Source: Cladopsammia gracilis
Lineage: Eukaryota; Cnidaria; Anthozoa; Scleractinia; Dendrophylliidae
Assembly (NCBI GenBank): GCA_022457155.1
Contig: JAJGOT010000194.1
Coordinates: forward strand, 1-64,000
Direction: 5' to 3'
DNA length: 64,000 nt
The notes beneath the pieces were generated by a model. The model was given only the letters and a program-made list of their open reading frames with translations, was not told the DNA's origin and searched no databases. How positions within the stretch are numbered: the stretch's first letter is position 1; every line of letters begins with the position of its first letter. Shown here in pieces: positions 21,655-51,820 of the stretch. Made by a program: the position numbers and the translations under genes.

Positions 21655-22174
21655 TGAGCCTGAAAACGTTCGTACAATGTTCTTAAGTTAATGTGAAGAC
21701 AGGTTTTCTGGCACTAAGGACAATTCACTATCTGGGACGGCTCTTGGGGGAGCACTCGCTGGCGTCGGGAAGTCCGGGATCTGTTACAGCACATAATATC
21801 TCCGAGACAAATGGTACAGACGGAACTTTGGTCCAACGTAGTTTATGTTACTTGTACTCAAGAACATAGCCAAAATACAACCAGAGTGTAACCATAGTGT
21901 AACCGGCAACTCGACCATCAGGGGTATAGCCCCACCGGGCGTATTCCGACTCACGTCTTATAAAGTACTTGTATTTGAGACTAACCTAACACACAACTTG
22001 AATTACATCCTAACAAAAAATTAAAAGTCTTGTTTGAAAACATAAACAAACATTTCAGAAGCCTTATTGGATGAGACTTAAACCAAGCTTTGCAACATTA
22101 ATTACTTTCAAACTTACACAGGTACTAACAACTTAACAAAAGGACTTTTGCAGGTTCTTACACTTTACAGCTAA

Positions 22175-22890
22175 GGCTATGTTCACACTTGGTGCCCGAG
22201 CACAGCACAGTGCCCAGTAAAAGATTATCGTTGGGCACTAATGTGAACACACCTTTTTTCTTTCAAGTACCCACGCCAGAATTCGGGCACGTTGCCCGTT
22301 CCCGAGTACAAGGTCGAGACCTTGTTCTCGGGCACTAAAGTGAGCACCGGTTCCCAGTGTGCACGCGTTTTGCGTTAGTTCCGAGGAACTTTACCTACAA
22401 ACCAGTGCTTGTTGTGTACTCACAATTCCCTGGTACACTCTAGTGTGAACACGTTGATATCTTATGTACCCAGTGTCTGAACACAGCACCATTTTGTGCC
22501 GGTACCCAGGCACTTGTGCTTGGGCCCCCCGGCTATGTTCACACTTGGTGCCCGAGCACTAGTGCCTGGGTACCGGCACAAAATGGTGCTCTGTTCAGAC
22601 ACTGGGTACCCAAGATATCAACATGTTCACATTCTGAGTGTACAAGGGAATTGTGGGTATGCAAAGCAGTAGTTTGTGGGTATAGTGCATCGAAACTAAC
22701 GTAAAACGCGTGCACACTGGGAACCGGTACCCACTTTAGTGTCCGAGTACAAGGTCAAGACTTTGTACTCGGGCACGGGCACCGTGCCCAAATTCTGGCG
22801 TGGGTACTTGAAAGAAAGGTATGTTCACATTAATGCCCAGCGATAATCGTACTCGGGCACCGTGCTCGGGCACCAAGTGTGAACATAGCC
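22175..22890. mobile_element. Head-to-head pair of GGCTATGTTCACACTTGG elements
   Basis: 22,175-22,530 and 22,531-22,890 are imperfect reverse complements along their full length. Both units begin GGCTATGTTCACACTTGGTG, and the outer right end is its complement. The first unit lacks this sequence at the junction, where it ends in a C-run. Confidence 0.8.
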
Positions 22891-23964
22891 TTTTACTCCT
22901 AAGGTTGGGCGAGAACAGTTTACGCTAACCTTAACAGCAGGTGTTAAGGTTATCGTACTGGAAAACTATAAGAGAAAATAATTATACGCTGGATTTTTAT
23001 ATTTTTACACAGCAAAGCAAGCGAAACTAAATAACAATAATTCCCGGCTGTTATCACAATAAACTGTGCAGTAATTTTCAGTAAATCATATTTCTGAGTG
23101 AAAAGAAAGAAGAACAGGCCATCCCGCCAAGTTCTACCAATTCCCTAAATTTGATATACATATTTATTATTTTAAAATGGAAATCAAGCATTTTGGACTC
23201 AGTTGTACTGTAAATTTTCTCTGACCGTATTATTATACTTTATTGTTTGACATAGCATTCTAGAGTACAAATATGCATCAAAACGAGTGCAAATATGATA
23301 TGTTATTACACTCTTCTGACCGCGCGCAAGGAAAACACTTTTACGAGAAGTCTACTGTCGTATAATAATTTATTCGCCTAAACTCGTAATAATACTCAGC
23401 CATATTACACAACTTTTCACCGAATAACCTCATGTATTTTTTATTCTTAGTTTATTGTAAAAACAAGAGGACAGAATAAAGACATTGTTAACAAAATCTC
23501 AGCCCGGGTAGGTTTCTTCAAATTTTGGCCATTCCCAGTCTCAACGTTCTTATATATAATAACAGAGTGACTGTATACATTAAAGTTGAAATGTAGAATT
23601 AACGACAGCGAACGAACCTGAAATCATTCGCGAAATGAAACTCCAAGTTGTCCATAGACACCGGTAACGATAGTAACCAATAAATCCCAGCCATCAGCCT
23701 CGTTTTCAAAACGAGGCTGACATATATGTTGGTATCGTATGCGACCGTGACAAAATCCTCAGGTCCGTAGCCAGTATGAGGCAAACCGAAGCACTTGCCT
23801 CAGTCATTTTTTTTTCGTGGAAAGAAAGATTTCTTTTTGAAGGAGAAAGTAAGACACTACCAGCAAATAACCATGGATATTGCCTTAGTCCTTATTTTTG
23901 TCTGGCTACGGCCCTGATCCTACATGGTGTTACAATTCAATAGGCCATTTCCGAGTTGCCTTTA
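22891..23964. other. Gene-free stretch
   Basis: AT-rich sequence, no supported gene. A 25-bp palindrome CAGCCTCGTTTT / AAAACGAGGCTG lies near 23,695-23,720. Confidence 0.4.
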
Positions 23965-27009: not shown

Positions 27010-27288
27010 GTTATATATATATATACCTGGATTTTTGAAAAGGTGATCAACGAAAATTACAGCAATTTCACTACAACTAGCCCAAACAAGGGTTTTTATG
27101 AACCCAATCAGCCCGAAAATCACAGAGAAGAGAGGGAAGATGGGAAAGGTTGCGTGGGCGAGAGAAGAAAACACTCTGTAATTTTCGGGCTGATTGGGGT
27201 CATAAAAACCGTTTTTTGGCTATTTCTAGTGAAATTGCTGTAATTTTCGTTGACCACCTTTTCAAAAATCCAGGTATATATATATATA
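27010..27288. mobile_element. Inverted-repeat element with TA-rich ends
   Basis: Arms of about 115 bp (27,010-27,127 and 27,174-27,288) share ATACCTGGATTTTTGAAAAG and CCAATCAGCCCGAAAAT in inverted orientation. The loop is about 50 bp. A T-run and G-run (27,290-27,325) follow directly. Confidence 0.8.
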
Positions 27289-34162: not shown

Positions 34163-34339
34163 GCAGTGTGCCGCCATGATTCGCGTGTCACATTCGCCAG
34201 ACATGATTCGCTCACCATGATTTGTCCATTGTCAAGAAATGGTGAAACATTTTTCCGTATATATCAAAGAAATAAAAACGCGCCGAGTGCATTATTGAGT
34301 TATATAAGCACGCGGGAATTTTAAAGAACACGAGAGAAT
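34163..34339. other. Spacer with AACGCGCCGAGTGCATTATT word
   Basis: The sequence from AAAACGCGCCGAGTGC to GAACACGAGAGA is shared with the palindrome cluster at 35,450-36,085, so it is probably a fragment of the same family. Confidence 0.5.
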
Positions 34340-34905
34340 CCGGCCCGACCTAAGTTTGTCAATAAGTATTTTATCATATGACCAATTTGGAGGCAAAATA
34401 AGTCGAAATCTTTACGTGCGAGGCCGCGTCCGCTTTTGTAGTAGGGCCGTACGGCTTTTTATCATATGGCCGTACGGCCCTGCGAACCTTTTCTTTGGAA
34501 AACCATTGATGAAAGTCCCGTATGAGGGCCGTACGCATCTGCGCGAGCGGGGCCGGAAAAAGGCGTGCGGCCCTACTACAAAAGCAGACGACCTCGCGCG
34601 TTAAAATTTCAAGTACTTTTGTCTCCAAATTGGTCATATGATGAAATACTTATTGACTAAGTTAGGTCGGGCCGGATGGGAAAATATTTGGCTCTCGGTC
34701 ATGGCGCACGGACCTCGCTGCGCTTGGTCCGTACGCCATGACCTCGAGCCAAATATTTTCCCATCCGGCCCTCCCACTTAGTCAATAAGTACATATTCCG
34801 GCCCCGCTCGCGCAAATGCGTACGGCCCTCATACGGGACTTTCGTTAATGGTTTTGCAAAGAAAAGGTTCGCAGGGCCGTACGGGTCATATGATAATGAA
34901 CCTTA
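34340..34905. mobile_element. Compound palindrome with GGGCCGTACG units
   Basis: 34,340-34,673 is an imperfect inverted repeat (ATCATATGACCAATTTGGAG mirrored near 34,620-34,642). 34,674-34,774 is a second, near-perfect one (GGATGGGAAAATATTTGGCT mirrored). 34,795-34,890 is an inverted copy of part of the first (CGTACGGCCCTCATACGGGA). No ORF is expected here. Confidence 0.75.
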
Positions 34906-35449: not shown

Positions 35450-36085
35450 TCATAGCGCGCGCATTTCCTTGAGCATTTTATTAAAGAAATAAAAAACGCG
35501 CCGAGTGCATTATTGAGTTATAAAGCACGCGGGAATTTTTAAGAACACGAGAGAAGTGCAGAGAAGCACGAGCCAAAGGCGAGTGCTTCTCGCACTTCTC
35601 GAGTGTTCTTAAAAATTCCCGCGTGCTTTATAACTCATTATAAAATGCTCAAGGAAATGCGCGCGCTATGATTGGTTCCCGCAAGTTCATTATAACTCGA
35701 TAAAGCACGCGCGTGACGTAAGATTCATTATAACCGTTTTTATTTTATAAAAGAAATAAAAAAACTTGTTCCTCGTGCATTGTTGAGTTATATAAGCACT
35801 TGGGAATTTTTAAGAACACGCGAGAAGTGCGAGAAGCACTCGCCTTTGGCTCGTGCTTCTCTGCACTTCTCTCGTGTTCTTAAAAATTCCCGCGTGCTTA
35901 TATAACTCAATAATGCACTCGGCGCGTTTTTTATTTCTTTAATAATGCACGAGGAACAAGTTTTTTTATTTCTTTTATAAAATGAAAACGGTTTTAATGA
36001 AGCTTACGTCACGCGCGTGTTTTATCGAGTTATAATGAACTCGGTTTGACCAATCATAGCGCGCGCATTTCCTTGAGCATTTTAT
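35450..36085. mobile_element. Nested palindrome cluster
   Basis: The word ACCAATCATAGCGCGCGCAT starts and (same orientation) nearly ends the block. In between, AACGCGCCGAGTGCATTATT, GCACGCGGGAATTTTTAAGA and GAAGTGCGAGAAGCAC recur in both orientations several times. At least two hairpin elements of one family appear to be inserted into one another. Confidence 0.7.
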
Positions 36086-37095
36086 AAAATAGCTTATATT
36101 GTTCTTTACGTATGTTACTATTTCAGGAAGTACGTAAGTATTTACTCTATGAGTTCATTTTATTGGCCAATTTCTTCACCATTATCTTATCATGGGAGAA
36201 TCATGACGGGCGATCGAATCATAACCAGCGAATTTTGTAATTTGGGACAACCCGGGTCAGTACACAGCAGTAAAATCGGTTGTAACCTAGCAACTGTTCA
36301 GCTTTATATACGGCCTCATGTGTTTTATTTCGTTTGAGGTAAGCGCGCGCTTCAGATCATTCACTTGCGCGAACATTCAACATTCGCGTAAGAACTCCAA
36401 CGGTCATTCCAAGGAACAGTATGTCACGAATTCGTCACGCTCAGTACGAATCACTATGCTCGTTCGAGCATTCTGTTAAAGGTAAGTGTTTGTTAGCATG
36501 TTTCCGAATTTTCGTGAAATTCAAACGGTTGTAAATCTTGGAAATGTTAAGTGCACAGAAATATTATTGTTATTTAGAATTTAGGGTCATTTATATAAAA
36601 TAACTTTCAACCAGGTGCCATATTTTAAAATTTCTCCTTAAAGTTGAGCTATTTTGTTTCCCTCGGAGACCGATTATGTGTGTAAAGAAACTCGTTGTTT
36701 GCTGTTAAAATAAGAAATTTATCTAGATCTGATGTATAGCTGAGCAAACTACAAAAATGTACCTGTAGATTGAACAAAATAATTGAACCTCTCTTTTAAC
36801 AGCGACGGCAATGCTTGTGATTTAGTCGGGTCTCACGGCATAAAACTAGTACCGACCACATGAAACTTTTGGATAAAACTAATTGCATTTTTATGACTGC
36901 TAATGTAAAGGCTTTCTAATAGCCGCATATAAAAAATTATTGGTTGTTCCTTAGAGATAAAACGAATGCTTTGCGACTCGAAAACATCTTTGCGCGCGCT
37001 TGTTTGAACTGTTGTCAGTGGTCTGTTGGTGACGCATTTCGAACGACATTACGAAACAAAGGAATCCGAGATCCTGTATCAAAGACATCTCAATC
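36086..37095. other. 5' flank of the repeat-protein gene
   Basis: No supported coding region. A pyrimidine tract and AG at about 36,941-36,954 could be a splice acceptor of a 5' UTR exon that runs into the gene at 37,096. Confidence 0.4.
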
Positions 37096-39222
37096 ATGGC
37101 GTCCAATGACTGGGAGCTTAGTCAAGTTAGCAAGTCCATCGAGGTGGATAACCAAAGGTACACAGAAGTTATTCAAATGGCGGAACGAAGAAGAACCGCC
37201 GAAAAGTACATAAAAATTCAAAAGATACGTGAGGAGTTCACGGTTGGTGTCAGGCTGACAAAGACTGTTTTGATTGGAAAGAAAGGTAATCAGTTCGGCT
37301 ACAGAACCTTCGTACTATTGGAGCTTGTTCCTCCTCCGCAACTGTATTTAACAGACAGAGAATTCTACATCACCTTTAGCGGAACTCCATTCCACTTGCC
37401 GGATGGCTACAAATTCAAATTTTATGAAAATGCAGTGGAATGCTGGACACATAACAACATTTTTCAAGATAAGAAACAAGTGAAAATCTTAGTTAAAGCA
37501 AACTTCGACAAATTTCTTAAAGCACTACAGAACCTTACCAGACCAACAGCAACAAGGACCTCCTTTAACTACAGTTTCTGTGTCAGCAATATATCACCAT
37601 TTTCTGAATCCGACTCCGAGTACGAAAGCGAGAGCGAATCGGAATCTGAACAAGAACGTGAGAATGACATTGAGAAAGAGTTCTTTATCACTTTTAAAGG
37701 GACTCCATTACAGCTGCCGGATAGTTATCAATTCAAGTTTTATGAAAATGCAGTAGAATGCTGGAAGCACAATGTGCTTTTACAAGATGAAAAACAAGCG
37801 AAAATCCTGGTGAAATCAAACTTTGACAAATTCCTTAAGGCACTAGAGAACCTTTCCAGACCAACAGCAACAACAACCTCTTTTAATTACAATATTTGTG
37901 TCTGCAATATCTCCTCCTTCCTAGAATCGGACTCCGAGTACGAAAGCGATTCGGAATCCGAGGAAGAAGACCAGGAAACAACTGATAAACAAATGCAAAA
38001 TGGAACTGATAAAAAACTGCAGATTGCCACTGATGTAGTACTACAGAATGCAACTGATGAAGAACTGGAAAATGCCATTAATGATGAACTGCAGAATGCT
38101 ACTGATGAAGAACTGCAGAATGCAACTGACAAAGAACTGCAGAATGCAGAAGACGAGCGAAACACCACTGATGAAGAACTGCAAAGTACCACTGACGAAG
38201 AACTGCAGAATGTTACTGCAGAACTGCAGAATGTTACTGATGTACTGCATATTACCAGTGATGAAAAAATCCCTACTGACGAAGAAGACCAAAAAACTAC
38301 TGACGAAGAACTGCAGAATGTCACTGATGAAGAACTGCAGAATGCTACTGATGAAGAAGAGCAAAATACCACTGATGAAGAACTACAAAGTACCACTGAT
38401 GAAGAACTGCAGAATGCCACTGAGGAAGAACTGCAGAATGCCACTGATGAAGAACTGCAGAATGCTACTGATGACGAATTGCAGAATGCCACTGATGAAG
38501 AACTGCAGAATGCCACTGATGAAGAACTGCAGAATTGTACTGATGAAGAACTGCAGAATGCTACTGATGAAGAACTGCAGAATGCTACTGATGACGAATT
38601 GCAGAATGCCACTGATGAAGAACTGCAGAATGCCACTGATGAAGAACTGCAGAATGCCACTGATGAAGAACTGCAGAATTCTACTGATGAAGAACTGCAG
38701 AATGCTACTGATGAAGAACTGCAGAATGCTACTGATGAAGAACTGCAGAATGTCACTGATGAAGAACTGCAGAATGCTACTGATGAAGAAGAGCAAAATA
38801 CCACTGATGAAGAACTACAAAGTACCACTGATGAAGAACTGCAAAATGCCACTGATGTAGAACTGCACTGGAATGCCACTGATGAAGAACTACAACATTC
38901 CACTGATGAAGAATTGCAGAATGCTACTGATGAAGAACTGCAGTATGCCACTGTTGAAGAACTACAGAATACCAGTGAGGTAAAATGCCACAATAGCAGT
39001 AAGCAAGAACATCACTGGAATAACTCTAAAAAAGAAAGCCAGAATAACGCTAAGAAAGAACATCAGAACATCATAACACCAGGATACCAGAATAAAACTA
39101 AGAAAAACACGAACAAAAGGAAAATAAAGCAAAGACAAAACATATTCATGGGCTGGCTTAGTGCCGGATTAGTGAAGGTATTTTCCAAAGGCGTTCTTAT
39201 CTGTTTGTTACCTTATAAATAA
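37096..39222 (+). CDS. Unknown 708-aa protein with duplicated domain and TDEELQNA repeats
   Basis: ATG in good context (CAATCATGG), one exon. Residues 1-88 are a polar, partly basic start. Two copies of a roughly 100-residue domain follow (about 89-188 and 195-290), each running from EF-ITF-GTP through YENAVECW to NFDKFLKAL and SFNY, and each ending in an acidic Ser/Glu tract (ESDSEYES). About 40 copies of the octapeptide TDEELQNA fill residues 295-630. Each repeat contains the sequon N-A-T, but there is no signal peptide, so glycosylation is not implied. The tail is basic (KRKIKQRQ) and ends in a hydrophobic stretch (FMGWLSAGLVKVF). The family is not recognised. The ORF is intact despite a 1-kb minisatellite, which argues for selection or recent expansion. 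Confidence 0.75.
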   Translation: MASNDWELSQVSKSIEVDNQRYTEVIQMAERRRTAEKYIKIQKIREEFTVGVRLTKTVLIGKKGNQFGYRTFVLLELVPPPQLYLTDREFYITFSGTPFHLPDGYKFKFYENAVECWTHNNIFQDKKQVKILVKANFDKFLKALQNLTRPTATRTSFNYSFCVSNISPFSESDSEYESESESESEQERENDIEKEFFITFKGTPLQLPDSYQFKFYENAVECWKHNVLLQDEKQAKILVKSNFDKFLKALENLSRPTATTTSFNYNICVCNISSFLESDSEYESDSESEEEDQETTDKQMQNGTDKKLQIATDVVLQNATDEELENAINDELQNATDEELQNATDKELQNAEDERNTTDEELQSTTDEELQNVTAELQNVTDVLHITSDEKIPTDEEDQKTTDEELQNVTDEELQNATDEEEQNTTDEELQSTTDEELQNATEEELQNATDEELQNATDDELQNATDEELQNATDEELQNCTDEELQNATDEELQNATDDELQNATDEELQNATDEELQNATDEELQNSTDEELQNATDEELQNATDEELQNVTDEELQNATDEEEQNTTDEELQSTTDEELQNATDVELHWNATDEELQHSTDEELQNATDEELQYATVEELQNTSEVKCHNSSKQEHHWNNSKKESQNNAKKEHQNIITPGYQNKTKKNTNKRKIKQRQNIFMGWLSAGLVKVFSKGVLICLLPYK
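37978..38985 (+). repeat. 24-bp coding minisatellite
   Basis: About 42 copies of ACTGATGAAGAACTGCAGAA plus TGCC, encoding TDEELQNA. The variants are mostly single substitutions (GAC for GAA, ATT for GCC). Because the unit is a multiple of three and lacks stops in most frames, long shadow frames open on both strands. Confidence 0.95.
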
Positions 39223-41011: not shown

Positions 41012-41051
41012 ACTAGTAAAGAAATATTTTTCGTTTGTCTCACGATGTAGT

Positions 41052-41312
41052 CACTTCCGATGTGGATCGCGACGTTTCGACTGCATACTGCTAGTCTTCT
41101 TCAGGCGATGGGGTCGACTGGTTACGCGTCACCTTATGAAGCACGATGCTCTGCTGTGATTGGTTGGTTTTCAACAGCTGTGACTAGTGCATTTTGATCC
41201 TCGTTGTTTCGGCGAATTGAAGAAGACTAGCAGTATGCTAGAAGACTAGAAGACTAGCAGTATGCAGTATGCACGAAACGTCGCGATCCACATCGGAAGT
41301 GACTACATCAGT
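41052..41312. mobile_element. Insertion in the left arm only, with hammerhead-bearing inverted ends
   Basis: The right arm reads straight through ACGATGTAAGTAGTGG, whereas the left arm has about 260 extra bases here. The insert's ends, GTCACTTCCGATGTGGATCG and its complement, are inverted, each leading into GCGACGTTTCG. The left copy is an intact hammerhead core; the right copy (about 41,221-41,287) is degenerate, with TTGAAGA and an expanded stem II. Confidence 0.75.
41066..41109 (-). ncRNA. Minimal hammerhead ribozyme motif (Penelope type)
   Basis: On the minus strand, stem I ATCGC (41,109-41,105) pairs with GCGAT (41,070-41,066). The core CTGAAGA is followed by stem II GACT...AGTC, then GAAAC and GTC. 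All core positions of the hammerhead consensus are present; helix III is two base pairs without a loop, as in Penelope-like elements. Confidence 0.65.
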
Positions 41313-41389
41313 AGTGGTGTGCGCTACTATCCTACCATTTTTGCGCGAAAATTTCAACCAATCAGAGAGCAGGAGAGAACAATAGGCCT

Positions 41390-41562
41390 ATAACCCTATT
41401 AGCATATTAACCCTAAGAATTACAGCTGCGCATGTCCTAATAACCCTAACCCTATTAGCATATTAACCCTAAGAATTACAGCTGCGCATGTCCTAATAAC
41501 CCTAACCCTATTAGCATATTAACCCTAAGAATTACAGCTGCGCATGTCCTAATAACCCTAAT
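41390..41562 (+). repeat. Three 56-bp tandem units with TAACCC words, left arm
   Basis: Each unit contains TAACCCTATTAGCATATTAA, CCCTAAGAATTACAGCTG and CGCATGTCCTAA. The array is mirrored in the right arm at about 49,517-49,690. Internal TAACCCTAACCC words recall telomere repeats but are not a telomeric array. Confidence 0.9.
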
Positions 41563-41690
41563 TCAAAATGGCGGATGTCATTGTTTATTCAAAATGGCGA
41601 AATTGAGACAAATATTCAAAATGGCGGAACTTATGAAATATTCAAAATGGCGAAGTTGAGTAAAGTATTCAAAATGGAGGATCTCATGAT
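41561..41690 (+). promoter_or_regulatory. Array of five TTCAAAATGGCG sites, left arm
   Basis: ATTCAAAATGG followed by CGG, CGA, CGG, CGA or AGG, spaced 20-30 bp apart, mirrored at about 49,390-49,515. AAAATGGCGG is the core recognised by YY1-type zinc-finger proteins in animals (established knowledge). A binding or promoter role here is inference. Confidence 0.5.
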
Positions 41691-44269
41691 TTATTCATCA
41701 AAGTCAGGGGGGCCCATCCAGTTCAAGGCGGGCCCCGCCAGTGCAAAAACGACCAAAGTCGTGTATTTGCTTACCTAACCTCGAATTCTAAGATCCCTTT
41801 ATAAGGACACAAGTTCTCTTCCATGTGGGACAACATGGTTGGGACACTTTGGATTTTTCAACCAGTACGCATGCGCAGTAGGGTTTTTTGGTCTAAATGG
41901 GTTCAAATTCAATTACAAACATGATTGTCACCCAAGATCTCTTCCATGTGGGACACATGTAGTAAACTTAACGGATTTTTAGCGACAGCGCATGCGCAGT
42001 ATCCTTTCTTAGTTTGATGTTAAAGTTTTTAGCCGAAAGTCTCACACATGTTTTTAACAAACATCTATATCAGAGCTCCCCTTGATTCTATTTGGCCCAT
42101 CGTAGATAGCGTGAATGATTCGATTCTGAAGATTACCGTCAAAGAAGGAAAGGATGTTTTGGATCAAAAACCAAAGAAAGATGACCTTAAAATGGAACCA
42201 GTCAAAAGCAAGGGCTAAATGTCTTGGAGTCAATAACCAAACGTCAAGTCAAACCGAAAAAGCGAAAGCTGTCAACTTTGAAAGTTGAGATTCCCAAACG
42301 ACCAAAACTTCACAGACAACACGGAGTTTTATATTTGTGTGTGCTTTAAGTTTTGATAACAAGACCTTCCGGTAGCTTCAAAGTTCAAACGTTTAATTAT
42401 GCGAATTCTGAACTATTAATTTGCATGGAAAATTAGCACCTCGGTCAAAAAACAAAGCCACACGTTTAATGTTAACAAACCTCATCAAAGTTAAGTCAAC
42501 CAAAGCGGTTTTTATTTACAACCATTCAAATCCACGCACAGCAAAGCACAGTCAAATGATAAGGAAATCAAACTTAACGATGGAACTGATCGTCTTCTTT
42601 CTTGAAATACTTTCGGCCATATCAATCAGTGAAGCCGAGTTCGCACTTTTACGTTTATCATTCGATAAATGAACTTGTTGGATTCGAGGCTGTTTTCGGA
42701 AACCTTTACCATATTTATTTATCATAAAGTAACCAGATAACCAAAGCAAAGTTGCATGTCCAAACATTAATTTATATTAAATTTAACAACTTTACTCGAA
42801 AGAAAAGTAACTGGGCTGCGATAGTTTAAAGCGTGACGAATGAACGTTCAATTAGCGATAACAGTTTACGAACGAATTAACAATGCTTTTCTTGAAGTCA
42901 ATGAATGCGCAGCGCTATTCGCGTACCAACGAACCTTTTCTGTCATTTGAATTTAAGCGGCCATTTATAAAAACATAATGAACTAAAACAAATTCTGTTT
43001 AAACAACGTTTAAACGCAACCGTTGCTTCAAACATGGCGAAAGCATGTTTGCATGGAATGGAAAAAATATAAGCTACATGAAGTGATATTATACGCAGCG
43101 AAACCTTGCGAGTGTTCTGCTGTTTATTTGTGGAACTTCTTTAGACAAGTTAAACAATAAACTTAAAAGCCATTGTAATTATCAATTGCCAACTTTGAGG
43201 GTGACTGACATGCAGAGGAAACGTTTAGGAAACGCGAGGCTTGTTATTGGGAAAGCAGGACAATTTTTTTTTATTTGGTTTCACAGGGAGATATTTTCTT
43301 TAGAACGTGATTGACCATAACAACAACACTATGTATTTGAGCAAACGCTAAAATGTTCTCTATTTTAACAAGCTTTAATAAGCACTGAAACAAAGTTAAC
43401 AATGTCTTTAAAGTAATTTACTGTGAATACTATTTACAACAACCGAAACGGCCATTCATCATTCGAAAAGTCTGCTTTCCAACTAAAAGCCTTTTTCTGC
43501 GGTACGATTAGAGAATCCAAAAAACGTAAGGCAAAGTTACATGTTCAAACGAATAACAGCAAACAATGTACCCGCTTTATAATTTACCAACATACACATC
43601 ACAAGTTTACTTTACGCAACAGAAAAGTAACTGGGCTGTGATTCTTTTTGCGGTAACGAGTTAAGGGTCAATTAATGATAACAGTTTAGGGACGAATAAG
43701 TCAAGGATTGTTTGGATGCACAGCGCTATCCGCGTGCTAAAGAGAAACGACACGAGTTTAAAATACTCTTTTTAATTACAATTAAGCTGTCTCAAGGGTA
43801 ATTGAACTATTCATTTGTATTTACATACTGTTGAAAACATGAGATTGTAATAAGACATTACATAATGTTTTCGTAAAAAATATGTGATTTTGTTGGTCCG
43901 TATTACCGTTCACACTAAATTTTTGCGGGTTCTAATTTTTCTAATTTATATTCCCGCAACATTTTCTCCTTAAAAACGTTCGGCTCCGCTGTCGAAGCTA
44001 TATACAAACTTATCATTATTTAGTAATTAACGTAATGTAAAATCGTGTTGGTGCCCATTTATTAAATAAACGTCTCTTTCGTTAAGAAAATGCCACTGAT
44101 AACTCAGGTGATAATGTATGAAATGGTTCCGTTGCTATTGCTGATCGATCCACTGCCAGAGAATCAAGTCAGCCACACAGCTGACTAGGGCACAAAAGTA
44201 AGTTTCTGCAAAACATCAAAATTTAAGTTACTGAAACGACAAACAATAGATTGGAGTCATTCAGCGCGA

Positions 44270-44620
44270 ATTCAAGAGCAACTTAGACCGACCCCTGGAG
44301 TAGCTCATTGTAACTCAGAGCAACTCAGAACATTTGAGTAAGAAACTCAGAGCACTTGAGCGAGCAACTCAGACCATACAACGTAGACCAACCCCCTAGA
44401 GTAGCTCATTGTAACTCAGAGCAACTCAAAGCATTTGAGTAAGAAACTCAGAGCACTTGAGCAAGCAACTCAGACCATTTGATTGAGCAACTTAGAGCAA
44501 CTCGGAGCAACTCGGAGCAACTCAGAGCAACTCAGAGTAACTCAGAGCAACTCAGACCATTTGATTGAGCAACTTAGAGCAACTCGGAGCAACTCGGAGC
44601 AACTCGGAGCAATTCACACG
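44270..44620 (+). repeat. GAGCAACTCA tandem array, left arm
   Basis: 10-bp units GAGCAACTCA/GAGCAACTCG alternate with CATTTGAGTAAGAAACTCAG-type spacers. The mirrored array is at about 46,470-46,805. Copy order differs slightly between the arms. Confidence 0.85.
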
Positions 44621-44759
44621 ATGATACAGGGTCGATAACAGATGAATTTGACCTCCTTGTCGATCTGTTTAGTCAGTTTGAGCAGAGGTCAAAGACTATA
44701 ATCAGCAGAGGTCACAGCAGAGGTCAAAGACTACAATACCCAATATTTCAAGAATGACA

Positions 44760-44765
44760 TTTATT
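44760..44765 (-). terminator. Poly(A) signal of the zinc-finger gene
   Basis: AATAAA on the minus strand, 34 nt after the stop codon at 44,799. A mirrored copy lies at about 46,319-46,324. Confidence 0.6.
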
Positions 44766-44798
44766 AAAGACAATTGCAAAATAATGCATTACAGAAAA

Positions 44799-45557
44799 TC
44801 ACGTTGTATAAAAACTATCGTAATATTTTCTCTTTTTTGCTGTGTAAGTCAAGTCTTCATCTTCATTCGCCGTTTCTTTAGGTACTAGATCCTCCTGGTC
44901 AAACAGTCTGTTCAATAAATATTTTCGTGTATTGACTGCTGCTTCAGCGGCTTCCGCATAATCCATGTCATCATCTTCCATAAAGCTATGTAATGTTTTC
45001 ATGACCTTTTTATGCAGTGGGTCAGTTCTAAGATCACGATACCACTTTAGATAGTTCAGATACAACCATCGTAGCCTCTTTCTGTAAACAGGGAGTAAAA
45101 GATTGGATGCTTGAACCTCCGCAACGTCTTGTGGCAAACCCTGCATCGTGTTCTCTTTCACCTGCTCTTCCCAGGTTGAGCTAAGGTCATTAATAACTTG
45201 CTCACGTAACTTATCCCAAGGATCAGTATCATCATTTTCAGCGTCACTAGCTATGCTTTTCTGGTCTTCGCTTTCGTCATCGTCACTATTGCCATCATCA
45301 TCATCATCATCATCATCATCTTTCTCTTCTTTTTCTTCTTCTTCTTCTTCTGCTTTCTCCATCCGACGTATTGCCTTTTCATATTCTTCAAATGGGTTCT
45401 CATCATTACAAGTATCTGGAGAATTCTCTCCCGTTCTATACTGGTTGGTCATCTCTTCTTGTTGTTGCTCTGAACGTTTATTACAACATTGTTCCTCGTG
45501 CCTATCTCTGTTGTATTTTCGGCTAAATACTCTTTCACAGAATTGACAAGAATGCAT
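44799..45557 (-). CDS. C2HC zinc-finger acidic protein of the palindromic element
   Basis: 252 residues, single exon. The N-terminus has a finger C-x2-C-x12-H-x3-C (CQFCERVFSRKYNRDRHEEQ then C). Next is a long acidic region with Glu-rich coil and nine consecutive Asp, then a conserved-looking helical part around NLLLPVYRKRLRWLYLNYLK, and a C-terminus with TAKKRKYYDSF. A TATA box lies 64-75 nt upstream and AATAAA 34 nt downstream of the stop, so the unit looks expressible. The last roughly 40 codons lie in the inverted arm and are duplicated at 46,166-46,290. A DNA-binding role is inferred from the finger only; it may serve the element. Confidence 0.8.
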   Translation of the reverse strand: MHSCQFCERVFSRKYNRDRHEEQCCNKRSEQQQEEMTNQYRTGENSPDTCNDENPFEEYEKAIRRMEKAEEEEEEKEEKDDDDDDDDDGNSDDDESEDQKSIASDAENDDTDPWDKLREQVINDLSSTWEEQVKENTMQGLPQDVAEVQASNLLLPVYRKRLRWLYLNYLKWYRDLRTDPLHKKVMKTLHSFMEDDDMDYAEAAEAAVNTRKYLLNRLFDQEDLVPKETANEDEDLTYTAKKRKYYDSFYTT

Positions 45558-45620
45558 ATTGATCCTCGATGGTTACTCGATGATGACTTGTTGTAAAATG
45601 AGCACAAACACATCACCTTG

Positions 45621-45641
45621 CTTATTTATATAGTTGAGTCA
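45621..45641 (-). promoter_or_regulatory. TATA box and AP-1-like site of the zinc-finger gene
   Basis: Minus-strand TATATAAATAAG (45,632-45,621) lies 64 nt before the ATG at 45,557. The palindromic TGAGTCA/TGACTCA at 45,635-45,641, just upstream, matches the AP-1 consensus. Confidence 0.55.
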
Positions 45642-46046
45642 CTCAAAAGGGTTTTGTAAATTGAGCATGTCATTTTGTTACAAAAAGAGGTTTTACTTGA
45701 CCTTAAGCCAAATTAAACAAATAAAAACTATACATACAACGCGTTCCAAAATAATAAATAAACAAATAAAAATTAACAATTATCACACGGGGTGGAAGGC
45801 ATGTGAAGCATCAGGGTGAGTAGATGCCCAACATTTTTCAAGCCTTGCTACTGTCTTCCCCTTGCATTCCCAGTCTTCCCTACATTATCAATGCTTTACA
45901 ATTTGGTCTTCCTGCATTTTTACTTCGATTTCCTCCTCCTTTCAAAACATTAGAAAAAATGGGCTTGCCCCGTGTCAGAATGCCCACACGGACTAGTTTC
46001 GCTTTGCTTCAAAACAAAACAGTTACTAAGATCAAAACAATAATTA
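45642..46046. other. Spacer of the palindrome, no further gene
   Basis: Unique AT-rich sequence between the zinc-finger promoter and the tRNA-like sequence. No convincing coding frame. Confidence 0.45.
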
Positions 46047-46117
46047 TGCCTTGACAAGGATTCGAACCTGGGTTACTACGGCCACAACGCAGTGTATTAA
46101 CCACTAGCCATCAAAGC
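46047..46117 (-). tRNA. tRNA-His(GUG)-like gene or pseudogene
   Basis: On the minus strand: acceptor GCTTTGA pairs with TCAAGGC (one G-U). A-box TGGCTAGTGGTT. Anticodon stem CTGCG/CGTAG (one G-U) with loop TTGTGGC, anticodon GTG. B-box GGTTCGAATCC. Compared with animal tRNA-His it lacks one base in the D-arm and has a mismatch in the T-stem, so it is probably a tRNA pseudogene or a SINE head, though pol III could still read it. Confidence 0.55.
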
Positions 46118-46165
46118 GGTGGCTACTATAGCTGGTTAATTTAAAAATATTTATAAGTTTAAATA

Positions 46166-49100
46166 ATTTATTGAACAGACTGTTTGACCAGGAGGATCTA
46201 GTACCTAAAGAAACGGCGAATGAAGATGAAGACTTGACTTACACAGCAAAAAAGAGAAAATATTACGATAGTTTTTATACAACGTGATTTTTTGTAATGC
46301 ATTATTTTGCAATTGTCTTTAATAAATGTCATTCTTGAAATATTGAGTATTGTAGTCTTTGACCTCTGCTGTGACCTCTGCTGATTATAGTCTTTGACCT
46401 CTGCTCAAACTGACTAAACAGATCGACAAGGAGGTCAAATTCATCTGTTATCGACCCTATATCATCGTGTGAATTGCTCCGAGTTGCTCCGAGTTGCTCT
46501 AAGTTGCTCAATCAAATGGTCTGAGTTGCTCTGAGTTACTCTGAGTTGCTCTGAGTTGCTCCGAGTTGCTCCGAGTTGCTCTAAGTTGCTCAGTCAAATG
46601 GTCTGAGTTGCTTGCTCAAGTGCTCTGAGTTTCTTACTCAAATGCTCTGAGTTGCTCTGAGTTACAATGAGCTACTCTAGGGGGTTGGTCTAAGTTGTAT
46701 GGTCTGAGTTGCTCGCTCAAGTGCTCTGAGTTTCTTACTCAAATGTTCTGAGTTGCTCTGAGTTACAATGAGCTACTCCAGGGGTCGGTCTAAGTTGCTC
46801 TTGAATTCGCGCTGAATGACTCCAATCTATTGTTTGTCGTTTCAGTAACTTAAATTTTGATGTTTTGCAGAAACTTACTTTTGTGCCCTAGTCAGCTGTG
46901 TGGCTGACTTGATTCTCTGGCAGTGGATCGATCAGCAATAGCAACGGAACCATTTCATACATTATCACCTGAGTTATCAGTGGCATTTTCTTAACGAAAG
47001 AGACGTTTATTTAATAAATGGGCACCAACACGATTTTACATTACGTTAATTACTAAATAATGATCAGTTTGTATATAGCTTCGACAGCGGAGCCGAACGT
47101 TTTTAAGGAGAAAATGTTGCGGGAATATAAATTAGAAAAATTAGAACCCGCAAAAATTTAGTGTGAACGGTAATACGGACCAACAAAATCACATATTTTT
47201 TACGAAAACATTATGTAATGTCTTATTACAATCTCATGTTTTCAACAGTATGTAAATACAAATGAATAGTTCAATTACCCTTGAGACAGCTTAATTGTAA
47301 TTAAAAAGAGTATTTTAAACTCGTGTCGTTTCTCTTTAGCACGCGGATAGCGCTGTGCATCCAAACAATCCTTGACTTATTCGTCCCTAAACTGTTATCA
47401 TTAATTGACCCTTAACTCGTTACCGCAAAAAGAATCACAGCCCAGTTACTTTTCTGTTGCGTAAAGTAAACTTGTGATGTGTATGTTGGTAAATTATAAA
47501 GCGGGTACATTGTTTGCTGTTATTCGTTTGAACATGTAACTTTGCCTTACGTTTTTTGGATTCTCTAATCGTACCGCAGAAAAAGGCTTTTAGTTGGAAA
47601 GCAGACTTTTCGAATGATGAATGGCCGTTTCGGTTGTTGTAAATAGTATTCACAGTAAATTACTTTAAAGACATTGTTAACTTTGTTTTAGTGCTTATTA
47701 AAGCTTGTTAAAATAGAGAACATTTTAGCGTTTGCTCAAATACATAGTGTTGTTGTTATGGTCAATCACGTTCTAAAGAAAATATCTCCCTGTGAAACCA
47801 AATAAAAAAAAATTGTCCTGCTTTCCCAATAACAAGCCTCGCGTTTCCTAAACGTTTCCTCTGCATGTCAGTCACCCTCAAAGTTGGCAATTGATAATTA
47901 CAATGGCTTTTAAGTTTATTGTTTAACTTGTCTAAAGAAGTTCCACAAATAAACAGCAGAACACTCGCAAGGTTTCGCTGCGTATAATATCACTTCATGT
48001 AGCTTATATTTTTTCCATTCCATGCAAACATGCTTTCGCCATGTTTGAAGCAACGGTTGCGTTTAAACGTTGTTTAAACAGAATTTGTTTTAGTTCATTA
48101 TGTTTTTATAAATGGCCGCTTAAATTCAAATGACAGAAAAGGTTCGTTGGTACGCGAATAGCGCTGCGCATTCATTGACTTCAAGAAAAGCATTGTTAAT
48201 TCGTTCGTAAACTGTTATCGCTAATTGAACGTTCATTCGTCACGCTTTAAACTATCGCAGCCCAGTTACTTTTCTTTCGAGTAAAGTTGTTAAATTTAAT
48301 ATAAATTAATGTTTGGACATGCAACTTTGCTTTGGTTATCTGGTTACTTTATGATAAATAAATATGGTAAAGGTTTCCGAAAACAGCCTCGAATCCAACA
48401 AGTTCATTTATCGAATGATAAACGTAAAAGTGCGAACTCGGCTTCACTGATTGATATGGCCGAAAGTATTTCAAGAAAGAAGACGATCAGTTCCATCGTT
48501 AAGTTTGATTTCCTTATCATTTGACTGTGCTTTGCTGTGCGTGGATTTGAATGGTTGTAAATAAAAACCGCTTTGGTTGACTTAACTTTGATGAGGTTTG
48601 TTAACATTAAACGTGTGGCTTTGTTTTTTGACCGAGGTGCTAATTTTCCATGCAAATTAATAGTTCAGAATTCGCATAATTAAACGTTTGAACTTTGAAG
48701 CTACCGGAAGGTCTTGTTATCAAAACTTAAAGCACACACAAATATAAAACTCCGTGTTGTCTGTGAAGTTTTGGTCGTTTGGGAATCTCAACTTTCAAAG
48801 TTGACAGCTTTCGCTTTTTCGGTTTGACTTGACGTTTGGTTATTGACTCCAAGACATTTAGCCCTTGCTTTTGACTGGTTCCATTTTAAGGTCATCTTTC
48901 TTTGGTTTTTGATCCAAAACATCCTTTCCTTCTTTGACGGTAATCTTCAGAATCGAATCATTCACGCTATCTACGATGGGCCAAATAGAATCAAGGGGAG
49001 CTCTGATATAGATGTTTGTTAAAAACATGTGTGAGACTTTCGGCTAAAAACTTTAACATCAAACTAAGAAAGGATACTGCGCATGCGCTGTCGCTAAAAA

Positions 49101-49804
49101 TCCGTTAAGTTTACTACATGTGTCCCACATGGAAGAGATCTTGGGTGACAATCATGTTTGTAATTGAATTTGAACCCATTTAGACCAAAAAACCCTACTG
49201 CGCATGCGTACTGGTTGAAAAATCCAAAGTGTCCCAACCATGTTGTCCCACATGGAAGAGAACTTGTGTCCTTATAAAGGGATCTTAGAATTCGAGGTTA
49301 GGTAAGCAAATACACGACTTTGGTCGTTTTTGCACTGGCGGGGCCCGCCTTGAACTGGATGGGCCCCCCTGACTTTGATGAATAAATCATGAGATCCTCC
49401 ATTTTGAATACTTTACTCAACTTCGCCATTTTGAATATTTCATAAGTTCCGCCATTTTGAATATTTGTCTCAATTTCGCCATTTTGAATAAACAATGACA
49501 TCCGCCATTTTGAATTAGGGTTATTAGGACATGCGCAGCTGTAATTCTTAGGGTTAATATGCTAATAGGGTTAGGGTTATTAGGACATGCGCAGCTGTAA
49601 TTCTTAGGGTTAATATGCTAATAGGGTTAGGGTTATTAGGACATGCGCAGCTGTAATTCTTAGGGTTAATATGCTAATAGGGTTATAGGCCTATTGTTCT
49701 CTCCTGCTCTCTGATTGGTTGAAATTTTCGCGCAAAAATGGTAGGATAGTAGCGCACACCACTACTTACATCGTGAGACAAACGAAAAATATTTCTTTAC
49801 TAGT
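46166..49804. repeat. Right arm of the giant palindrome
   Basis: Reverse complement of 41,012-44,920 without the 260-bp insert. It begins inside the duplicated 3' end of the zinc-finger gene (46,166-46,290) and ends at ACTAGT (49,804). Mirrored arrays: GAGCAACTCA (46,470-46,805), TTCAAAATGGCG (49,390-49,515) and the 56-bp units (49,517-49,690). Confidence 0.85.
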
Positions 49805-50229
49805 GTGTTCACCACGATGAACAACAACCCTTATTACGATATTAAGAAGAAATATGTAGAACCAATGTAACGATAACGAGTTTCAATTTTTATTTTGCTT
49901 TGATACTTTTACCAAAAAATACAAGGGAGGTGGGCAAAACTGCCACAAGTAAAATTTTGAATCTTGTAAATCTTGTTAAGTAAAATTTTGAATCTATCAT
50001 CATAATATTTAAAATTAAAATATTTGTAATAAGAAGTATTGTATATTGTAAAACCATGGTTACGCTTAATCAAGACCCACTTGGTAGCTTGTATATCAAA
50101 ATGAATTTATTGAAAGCTCTCGTGTAAAATAGTTTCACCAGAAACAAATTGCTTTCTGTTGAATTAATAGTAATATAATAATAAAAAAGAACGGATTATT
50201 GTTAAAAAAACTTGTGCCTTCTCTTTGTC
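49805..50229. other. Right flank of the giant palindrome
   Basis: AT-rich sequence without a gene. AAGAAGAAATAT at 49,844-49,855 repeats the 12 bases before the left arm, 39 bp beyond the right arm's end. Confidence 0.4.
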
Positions 50230-51353: not shown

Positions 51354-51820
51354 TGGGGGGTACTCAACAAAGTTTTGTACGGGGATGCTCCGCCCCGAGG
51401 TCCAAACCCTTACCCTTTCATGCATATACCGTTTTTGACAGAAAAGGTACCCCTTTCATATACCTTTCATTGAAAATGGTACCCCATTCATATACCTTTC
51501 ATTGAAAATGGTACCCCTTTCATATACCTTTCATTGATAATGTTATCTTTTTCATATAGCCTTTACGTGCGTCTGTTTGATATATTTTGAAAGGCGCTTT
51601 TAATAATACTTAAATGGCAGTTTTCCCTGCCCTTTTATAATTCAACTCGTGTTTTCGCTACCCTTTCCTAGTCTATTCTTTGTGAAATCCCTACCCTTTC
51701 ATATACTCCAACTCGTGAAATCGCTACCCTTTCATATACCTCCAGCCTCAAAACGGTACCCCTTTCGGGCGGAGCATCCCCGTATAGCTCATCATAGGGA
51801 TTACCCCCCCCCGGGAAAAT
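51354..51820 (-). mobile_element. GGGGATGCTCCGCCC element, copy 2 (inverted)
   Basis: Same structure as 1,246-1,660 in the other orientation, with inverted GGGGATGCTCCGCCC ends and CCTTTCATATACC units inside. About 580 bp of sequence without a gene follow before DIS3L, including a doubled GAGGTACGACAAGCACCC. Confidence 0.7.

Follow-up and report, generated by a model that had tools for sequence, protein, structure and literature searches.

The window analyzed here, 64,000 nucleotides of contig JAJGOT010000194.1 from the coral Cladopsammia gracilis, contains a giant palindrome at positions 41310-49766. By self-comparison of the window, this element is 8457 bp in length and is composed of two mirrored arms around a spacer of 1236 bp. 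The left arm (41310-44924, forward strand, beginning with AGTAGTGGTG) and the right arm (46161-49766, reverse strand, an inverted copy of the left arm ending with CCACTACT) were found to be 99.475% identical over 3616 aligned positions. An earlier reading made from the letters of the DNA (the sequence-only reading) had proposed near-identical mirrored arms of 3.6 kb, which the self-comparison upholds, and the mismatch that it quoted near 44,010 and its mirror near 47,065 is seen in the arm alignment as 44011 versus 47065. The element is very probably a non-autonomous derivative of the Polinton/Maverick superfamily that was inserted into an older repeat with the duplication of 6 bp. Its two ends bear one and the same Maverick terminus and enclose a zinc-finger gene, and its palindrome is likewise very probably an inverted duplication that has spread as a unit.

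Mismatches between the arms are restricted to the inner part and amount to 8 substitutions plus an indel of one 10-bp repeat unit. No difference is present in the outer 2077 bp, and the 8 substitutions all fall within the inner 1534 of 3611 bp (p = 0.001 for the substitutions under an even spread). Each arm contains a subterminal tandem repeat with a 56-bp unit present 3.1 times (41391-41561, forward strand; mirror 49515-49685) and a set of inner tandem repeats with 10-bp GAGCAACTC-type and 101-bp units (44279-44616, forward strand; mirror 46470-46797). The inner repeats also adjoin the zinc-finger gene at two other loci, C987 and C1256. Within the unmirrored spacer (44925-46160) are the greater part of the zinc-finger gene, the 5' flank of the gene, and a tRNA-like segment (46047-46117, reverse strand). 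The 3' end of the gene is repeated in truncated form at the inner end of the right arm. The tRNA-like segment was identified as tRNA-His by ARAGORN and matches Rfam family RF00005 with 33.8 bits (cut-off 29). It is found at 16 loci including the window, at 95-100% identity, with the zinc-finger gene listed nearby at 15 of the 16, and it travels along with the family.

The zinc-finger gene (44802-45557, reverse strand, with the stop codon at 44799-44801) encodes a protein of 252 residues and is the longest open reading frame (ORF) in the palindrome. Its last 41 codons are inside the left arm, and two frames of 143 and 91 residues are located opposite to it. The protein is composed of one C2H2-like knuckle (MHSCQFC...RHEEQC), an acidic linker, and a conserved helical C-terminal part; the Pfam zf-C2H2 match of 13.4 bits is below the cut-off of 25.2. 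A total of 60 homologues were found at E ≤ 0.01, with approximately 50% identity and a set of invariant residues. Four of the 60 are named, and all of these are from corals (Montipora, two from Acropora, and Oculina). A distant relative, P0060, belongs to a set of 10 proteins including itself, none of which is named. A sequence search of the PDB returned one match (E = 0.26) and no solved relative. The predicted fold has a mean predicted local distance difference test score (pLDDT) of 60.5, and Foldseek returned 55 matches at E ≤ 10 with none at 0.001. A scan of viral contigs with the zinc-finger family gave 29 pattern matches, 0 of which were confirmed.

The element is inserted within an older host repeat. 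The left part of this repeat (41012-41309) ends with one copy of the target duplication, TACATC (41304-41309). The second copy is found at 49767-49772, directly after the element, and the host repeat resumes at 49773-49804 with homology that extends to 49842-49845. The genome searched for other copies was the assembly of the window itself (878 Mb in 1469 contigs), and the match counts reported for it are minimum values, as scoring was limited to the best candidates. Positions 1-208 of the host repeat have 10 other full matches in this genome at 98-100% identity. When the two flanks are joined with the removal of one TACATC, the product is a sequence of 330 bp with an inverted repeat (94 aligned positions, 94.7% identity). 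The location of the element in the right half of this hairpin-like repeat explains two features of the sequence-only reading that are not part of the palindrome. The outer limits of 41012 and 49804 had been drawn too wide, since 41012-41049 and 49767-49804 (38 bp each) are host repeat plus one duplication copy, and the 260 bp at 41050-41309, taken for an insertion into the left arm, consist of host repeat together with a single TACATC. The insertion of a miniature inverted-repeat transposable element (MITE) into the left arm was likewise ruled out, as the host repeat and the TACATC duplication account for the entire stretch. A target duplication of ACTAGT at the outer ends 41012 and 49804 was also eliminated; three fetched host-repeat copies run past ACTAGT into GTGTTCACC, and the true end of the host repeat is therefore to the right of 49804.

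The element itself begins with AGTAGTGG at 41310 and terminates with CCACTACT at 49766, with TACATC on either side, and the (AGT)2//(ACT)2 motif is present. A search with 41012-41600 gave at least 66 matches from the best 40 of 1225 candidates scored. Many of these start at approximately 41310 and occur as inverted pairs on other contigs, and others cover positions 1-208 of the host repeat only. An exact 6-bp target duplication was found at 15 of the 17 loci where both ends were read: TACATC for the window, TACATA (C1012), GATATT (C1246), ATGATT (C1374), CAAGAA (C1054), GATAGG (C1321), TATATG (C987), TATATG (C581), TACAAG (C1201), TTAATA (C17), AGTAAA (C605), ATGGCT (C1265), GTAGTA (C1015), AGCGCT (C312), and CTTGAT (C1014). 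This count excludes C1421, C1178, C990, and C2, at which at least one end could not be located, and C793, C708, C803, C704, and C1424, for which a single end was fetched; C1097 and C354, from the search with 41012-41600, are outside the fetched set. In passages of PMC8097293, Mavericks are recognized by an end motif of (AGT)2//(ACT)2 or (AG)3//(CT)3 together with perfect 6-bp duplications, and the repeated end motif is said to permit jumping-back during protein-primed replication.

Relatives that share these termini were found to encode the proteins expected of Mavericks. The elements at C1246 and C1374 are 13.7-13.8 kb in length and carry the terminal ~770 bp (window 41310-42069) at both ends (99% and 93% alike). 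The adjoining segment, window 42064-44374, is present on both sides of the window element but on a single side of C1246 and C1374; the window element thus has the same Maverick terminus at either end. In total, the termini and 3.06 kb of each arm (window 41310-44374) have counterparts in two coding elements of the genome, C1246 with a retroviral-type integrase and a capsid protein, and C1201 with PolB. The Pfam matches of C1246 to the rve integrase (49.7 bits, 4.6e-13) and to a chromodomain (29 bits, 1e-6) are both above the cut-offs. C1246 also encodes a protein of 439 residues, several homologues of which are named F54H12.2-like. The predicted structure (pLDDT 84) of P0070, which is 94% identical to this protein, matches double jelly-roll capsid proteins, including those of mavirus (major capsid protein, 6g44, 5.3e-16) and Sputnik (3j26, 5.6e-16), and through this homologue the 439-residue protein is predicted to belong to the double jelly-roll capsid proteins. 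A PolB match (PF03175, E = 4e-42), with its final part in a second ORF, was found in C1201, the terminus of which is 88% identical.

The ORF list and Pfam scan of the window element revealed no ORF for an rve integrase, PolB, double jelly-roll capsid protein, protease, or ATPase. The element is therefore classified as non-autonomous, and with a capsid gene present in C1246 and missing here it is filed as a derivative rather than as a complete Polinton. The AGTAGT...ACTACT ends, the 6-bp duplications, and the coding relatives with the same termini together lead to the assignment as a non-autonomous Maverick derivative. The sequence-only reading had considered the palindrome to be unclassified, perhaps a new class of mobile element, and had stated that no known family, Maverick included, matches it. 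This position must be abandoned: the Maverick end motif, the 6-bp duplications, and the coding relatives were all found, the termini and 41310-44374 match the integrase-bearing C1246 and the PolB-bearing C1201, an outcome of the kind that the reading itself had named as its refutation, and the element derives from a known superfamily. The same reading described one zinc-finger protein and no transposase; for this copy both are as described, with the search for homologues covering the 252-residue ORF.

A cut-and-paste transposon of the Foldback/Galileo type, with long arms of tandem repeats, would also account for kilobase arms with internal tandem repeats. Foldback, Galileo, and Tetris share inverted arms with tandem repeats and a short loop with the window element, and differ in their ends, in the length of the duplication, and in the enzymes of their relatives. 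The target duplications are 7 bp for Galileo and 8-10 bp for Mutator, and the autonomous relatives of Foldback/Galileo elements have transposases of the P or Mutator type. Here the ends are (AGT)2 with duplications of 6 bp, the relatives with the same termini carry an rve integrase and a capsid protein or PolB, and a P- or Mutator-type transposase was found by Pfam in 0 of 36 distinct proteins from a subset of the ORFs of the relatives. We consider this alternative to be very improbable.

The palindrome is not confined to one locus. A search with part of the arm (42800-44270) gave at least 43 genome matches from the best 40 of 455 candidates scored, and at 9 loci a zinc-finger gene among the matches listed is enclosed by a mirrored arm pair; for the mirrored pairs at C2 and C605, there is no zinc-finger gene among the matches listed. 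The spacer/right-arm junction at 46161 is common to all 11 of the zinc-finger palindromes that were compared (window, C1012, C1321, C50, C581, C1265, C990, C17, C1178, C1421, and C1015); the other palindrome types at C34 and C1014 are outside this comparison. Both ends were read at 8 of these 11 loci, and 7 of the 8 have an exact 6-bp duplication, the exception being C50. One junction at different loci, with different flanks and duplications, implies that this palindrome type arose once and moved as a unit. A genome-wide arm search, which the sequence-only reading had suggested, thus returned many copies that have fixed ends and target duplications of uniform length, and the structure is mobile. 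An inverted duplication at a single locus was ruled out by the dispersed copies with fixed ends.

Two further alternatives are addressed by the same data. In the first, the palindrome is a static inverted duplication of chromosomal DNA with arms kept alike through gene conversion. The arms are 99.5% alike and differ in the inner part only, as conversion tracts might leave them, but a static duplication does not fit with the shared junction at 11 loci, the 6-bp duplications at 7 of 8, or the dispersed arm matches with fixed ends, and it is exceedingly improbable. In the second, a haplotype or chimeric read was folded back during assembly. This is a concern for a structure known from one assembly without reads, but the arms differ at 8 sites and an indel, the same junction occurs at 11 loci on separate contigs, and the target duplications fit; an artefact is scarcely credible.

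The arms of individual copies are more alike than the arms of different elements. For 10 of 11 palindromes, the divergence between the two outer arms is 0-0.5%; C1178, with 1.4%, is the exception. An additional internal arm copy at C1015 shows a divergence of up to 0.8%. By comparison, the 105 pairwise values among 15 elements have a median of 2.8% and a range of 0.07-5.0%. These values bear out the earlier view of a real structure with arms kept alike. A tree built from 27 arms includes both arms of 11 palindromes. In 7 of these (C17, C1421, C990, C1265, C1015, C1054, and C1057) the arms from the same copy are supported sisters (0.967-1.0), and the arms of the window, C1012, and C1321 are too alike for placement. 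The likeness of arms within copies, together with the one shared junction, argues for homogenization after the palindrome was formed, either through chromosomal gene conversion or through arm pairing during replication.

At least 196 matches to the zinc-finger gene were found in this genome from the best 150 of 1071 candidates scored. For a set of 26 chosen uninterrupted copies, with the interrupted and further intact copies left out, the ratio of nonsynonymous to synonymous substitution rates (dN/dS) was determined to be 0.36 when the full gene is considered (289 pairs with dS > 0.02) and 0.30 when the acidic part is left out (288 pairs), with no pair at 1 or above. These ratios indicate that the gene is under purifying selection. 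It would otherwise be reasonable to regard the palindrome as the accident of a decaying Maverick deletion derivative and the zinc-finger gene as a functionless passenger. Non-autonomous deletion products are common for DNA transposons, copies of the gene with stop codons exist, and the protein has no known function. Against such decay are the uninterrupted frame in many copies with these ratios, the homologues at approximately 50% identity with named members from corals, and the presence of the gene in at least three palindrome types as well as in C987 and C1256, which lack the giant palindrome. Decay is unlikely on balance. We think that the gene may have begun as a Maverick accessory gene, and the most plausible role of its protein would be to bind the DNA of the element, as a regulator or as a helper in replication or packaging.

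The following sequence of events is proposed for the Maverick derivative. As judged from the shared junction and the different flanks, the palindrome type was formed when an inverted duplication turned back within the 3' end of the zinc-finger gene, and it then spread as a unit. A Maverick integrase, acting in trans, would recognize the AGTAGT termini and insert the element, and we hold this step to be likely with good confidence. The Maverick protein-primed polymerase may copy the element as a linear molecule, a snap-back (template switch) during such replication may have generated the palindrome, and pairing of the two arms may keep them alike; these three proposals, taken jointly, have about an even chance of being correct. 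From these features we infer a satellite-like life that would depend on Mavericks in trans. A tentative extension, which we regard as doubtful, is that these are coral Maverick satellites whose symmetrical genomes arise by snap-back and are copied and perhaps packaged by Maverick proteins, with the selected zinc-finger gene helping to exploit or restrain the helper. Such a role toward the helper might be likened to that of defective interfering genomes and virophages.

Several observations weigh against this interpretation. C50 and C1057 lack the 6-bp duplication, and one end each at C50, C581, and C1057 has an altered base in the end motif. The integrase, the capsid gene, and PolB are found together in no fetched element; C1246 has no ORF of PolB length, and the ORFs of C1201 of at least 120 residues are PolB and short ones. 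The candidate adenovirus-like protease of C1246 (Peptidase_C5, 19.1 bits) is below the cut-off of 21.3, and its candidate packaging ATPase, a 225-residue ORF clipped by the end of the stretch, has weak AAA matches only. The choice of uninterrupted zinc-finger copies biases dN/dS toward low values. The left arm of C1178 groups with Maverick C1246 and not with its own right arm (0.934), which suggests that arms recombine with other elements too. The likeness of the arms would be accounted for equally well by ordinary gene conversion and by replication. Finally, no transposition, replication, or particle was observed.

Defective adenovirus genomes with a duplicated left end are symmetrical, and they offer a possible parallel, since protein-primed snap-back would be expected to give a shortened linear genome flanked by two copies of one terminus. 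The window element differs in that it is integrated, multicopy, and equipped with its own conserved gene, with no particles known. In passages of PMC5033970, left-end DNA in incomplete adenovirus particles is described, with no mention of duplication or symmetry. In common with the vertebrate Polintons/Mavericks treated in sections of PMC8097293, the element has the end motif, perfect 6-bp duplications, and terminal inverted repeats, and relatives in the same genome have an integrase with a double jelly-roll capsid protein, or PolB. It differs from them in its 3.6-kb palindromic arms, its one zinc-finger gene, and the lack of an integrase, polymerase, or capsid gene, and its length is 8.5 kb versus the 15-20 kb given for Mavericks in a passage of PMC4028283. 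The CMITEs of corals (PMC2872659) are likewise non-autonomous and are believed to rely on a relative that is autonomous; unlike the window element they are linked to piggyBac and geneless, and MITEs are usually <500 bp. No exact-phrase description of nonautonomous, defective, or palindromic Polintons, or of Polinton satellites, was found in the open-licence literature, which does not imply absence from print, and no such elements were apparent from the title or start of the abstract among the matches listed for the wider literature (open-licence papers).

In passages of PMC8097293 (2021), Mavericks were argued to be viruses, with particles then unobserved. Since linear protein-primed replication is expected to yield symmetrical derivatives, palindromic derivatives may record extrachromosomal replication of Mavericks. 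An element that depends on others and has a selected gene of its own would, if confirmed, make Maverick hyperparasitism testable in an animal. The copies described above indicate that a giant palindrome can be a mobile, homogenized unit in an animal genome.

Other palindrome types were found in the same genome. The second type, at C1014 (L088 1488 to L089 5816), is 17.5 kb in length with arms of ~6.5 kb, ends of AGTAGTATATCC, and the duplication CTTGAT. Its arms are 99.9% alike over 5823 aligned positions, and it contains the zinc-finger gene, a truncated inverted copy, a 236-residue protein sharing 53% identity with one encoded by Maverick C1246, and additional ORFs. At C34 (L086 1-1522 and 2756-4277), each arm of at least 1.5 kb has a complete zinc-finger ORF of 283 residues, the two being 100% identical, with tRNA-like segments farther out on both sides. 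C1054 and C1057 have arms of ~5 kb with a different C2H2 protein between them. C1057 (L020/L021) is a palindromic Maverick relative with 5.0-kb arms, outer flanks that are also mirrored, and a retroelement-like ORF (DUF1759/DUF1758). The existence of several types implies that palindromes formed more than once in the lineage. C987 is a zinc-finger element of 3.5 kb with 350-bp terminal repeats and without the junction at 46161. At many other loci among the matches listed, the zinc-finger gene is accompanied by a truncated inverted copy (residues ~123-252) a few kilobases away. C1256 and C1037 share with C1054 a stretch of ~515 bp (96%) with a 114-residue ORF near the zinc-finger gene. Among the matches listed, compared by eye, PolB is <20 kb from the zinc-finger gene only at C1256, where a match to the subterminal segment 41497-41765 is located between the two. 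The surroundings of the gene are thus a mosaic with Maverick sequence. At C1037:200284-205163 (L090), ~4.9 kb with ORFs of 319, 217, and 179 residues of no recognized kind separate the zinc-finger gene from the tRNA-like segment, and a similar spacing is found at C1270, C803, C1002, and C1198.

Elsewhere in the window, a 729-residue open frame (37033-39222) with no Pfam family above the cut-off has as its second half a 24-bp tandem repeat (~42 copies) encoding an acidic TDEELQNA-type sequence. An AGGA microsatellite of ~221 copies occupies positions 1-884. Inverted repeat copies at 51354-51812 and 1247-1660 are 81.6% alike and partly composed of 32-bp units. A smaller palindrome at 22173-22892 is 84.8% self-complementary over 736 aligned positions, and similar inverted stretches are located at 35465-35956, 35638-36087, 34338-34677, and 27012-27288.

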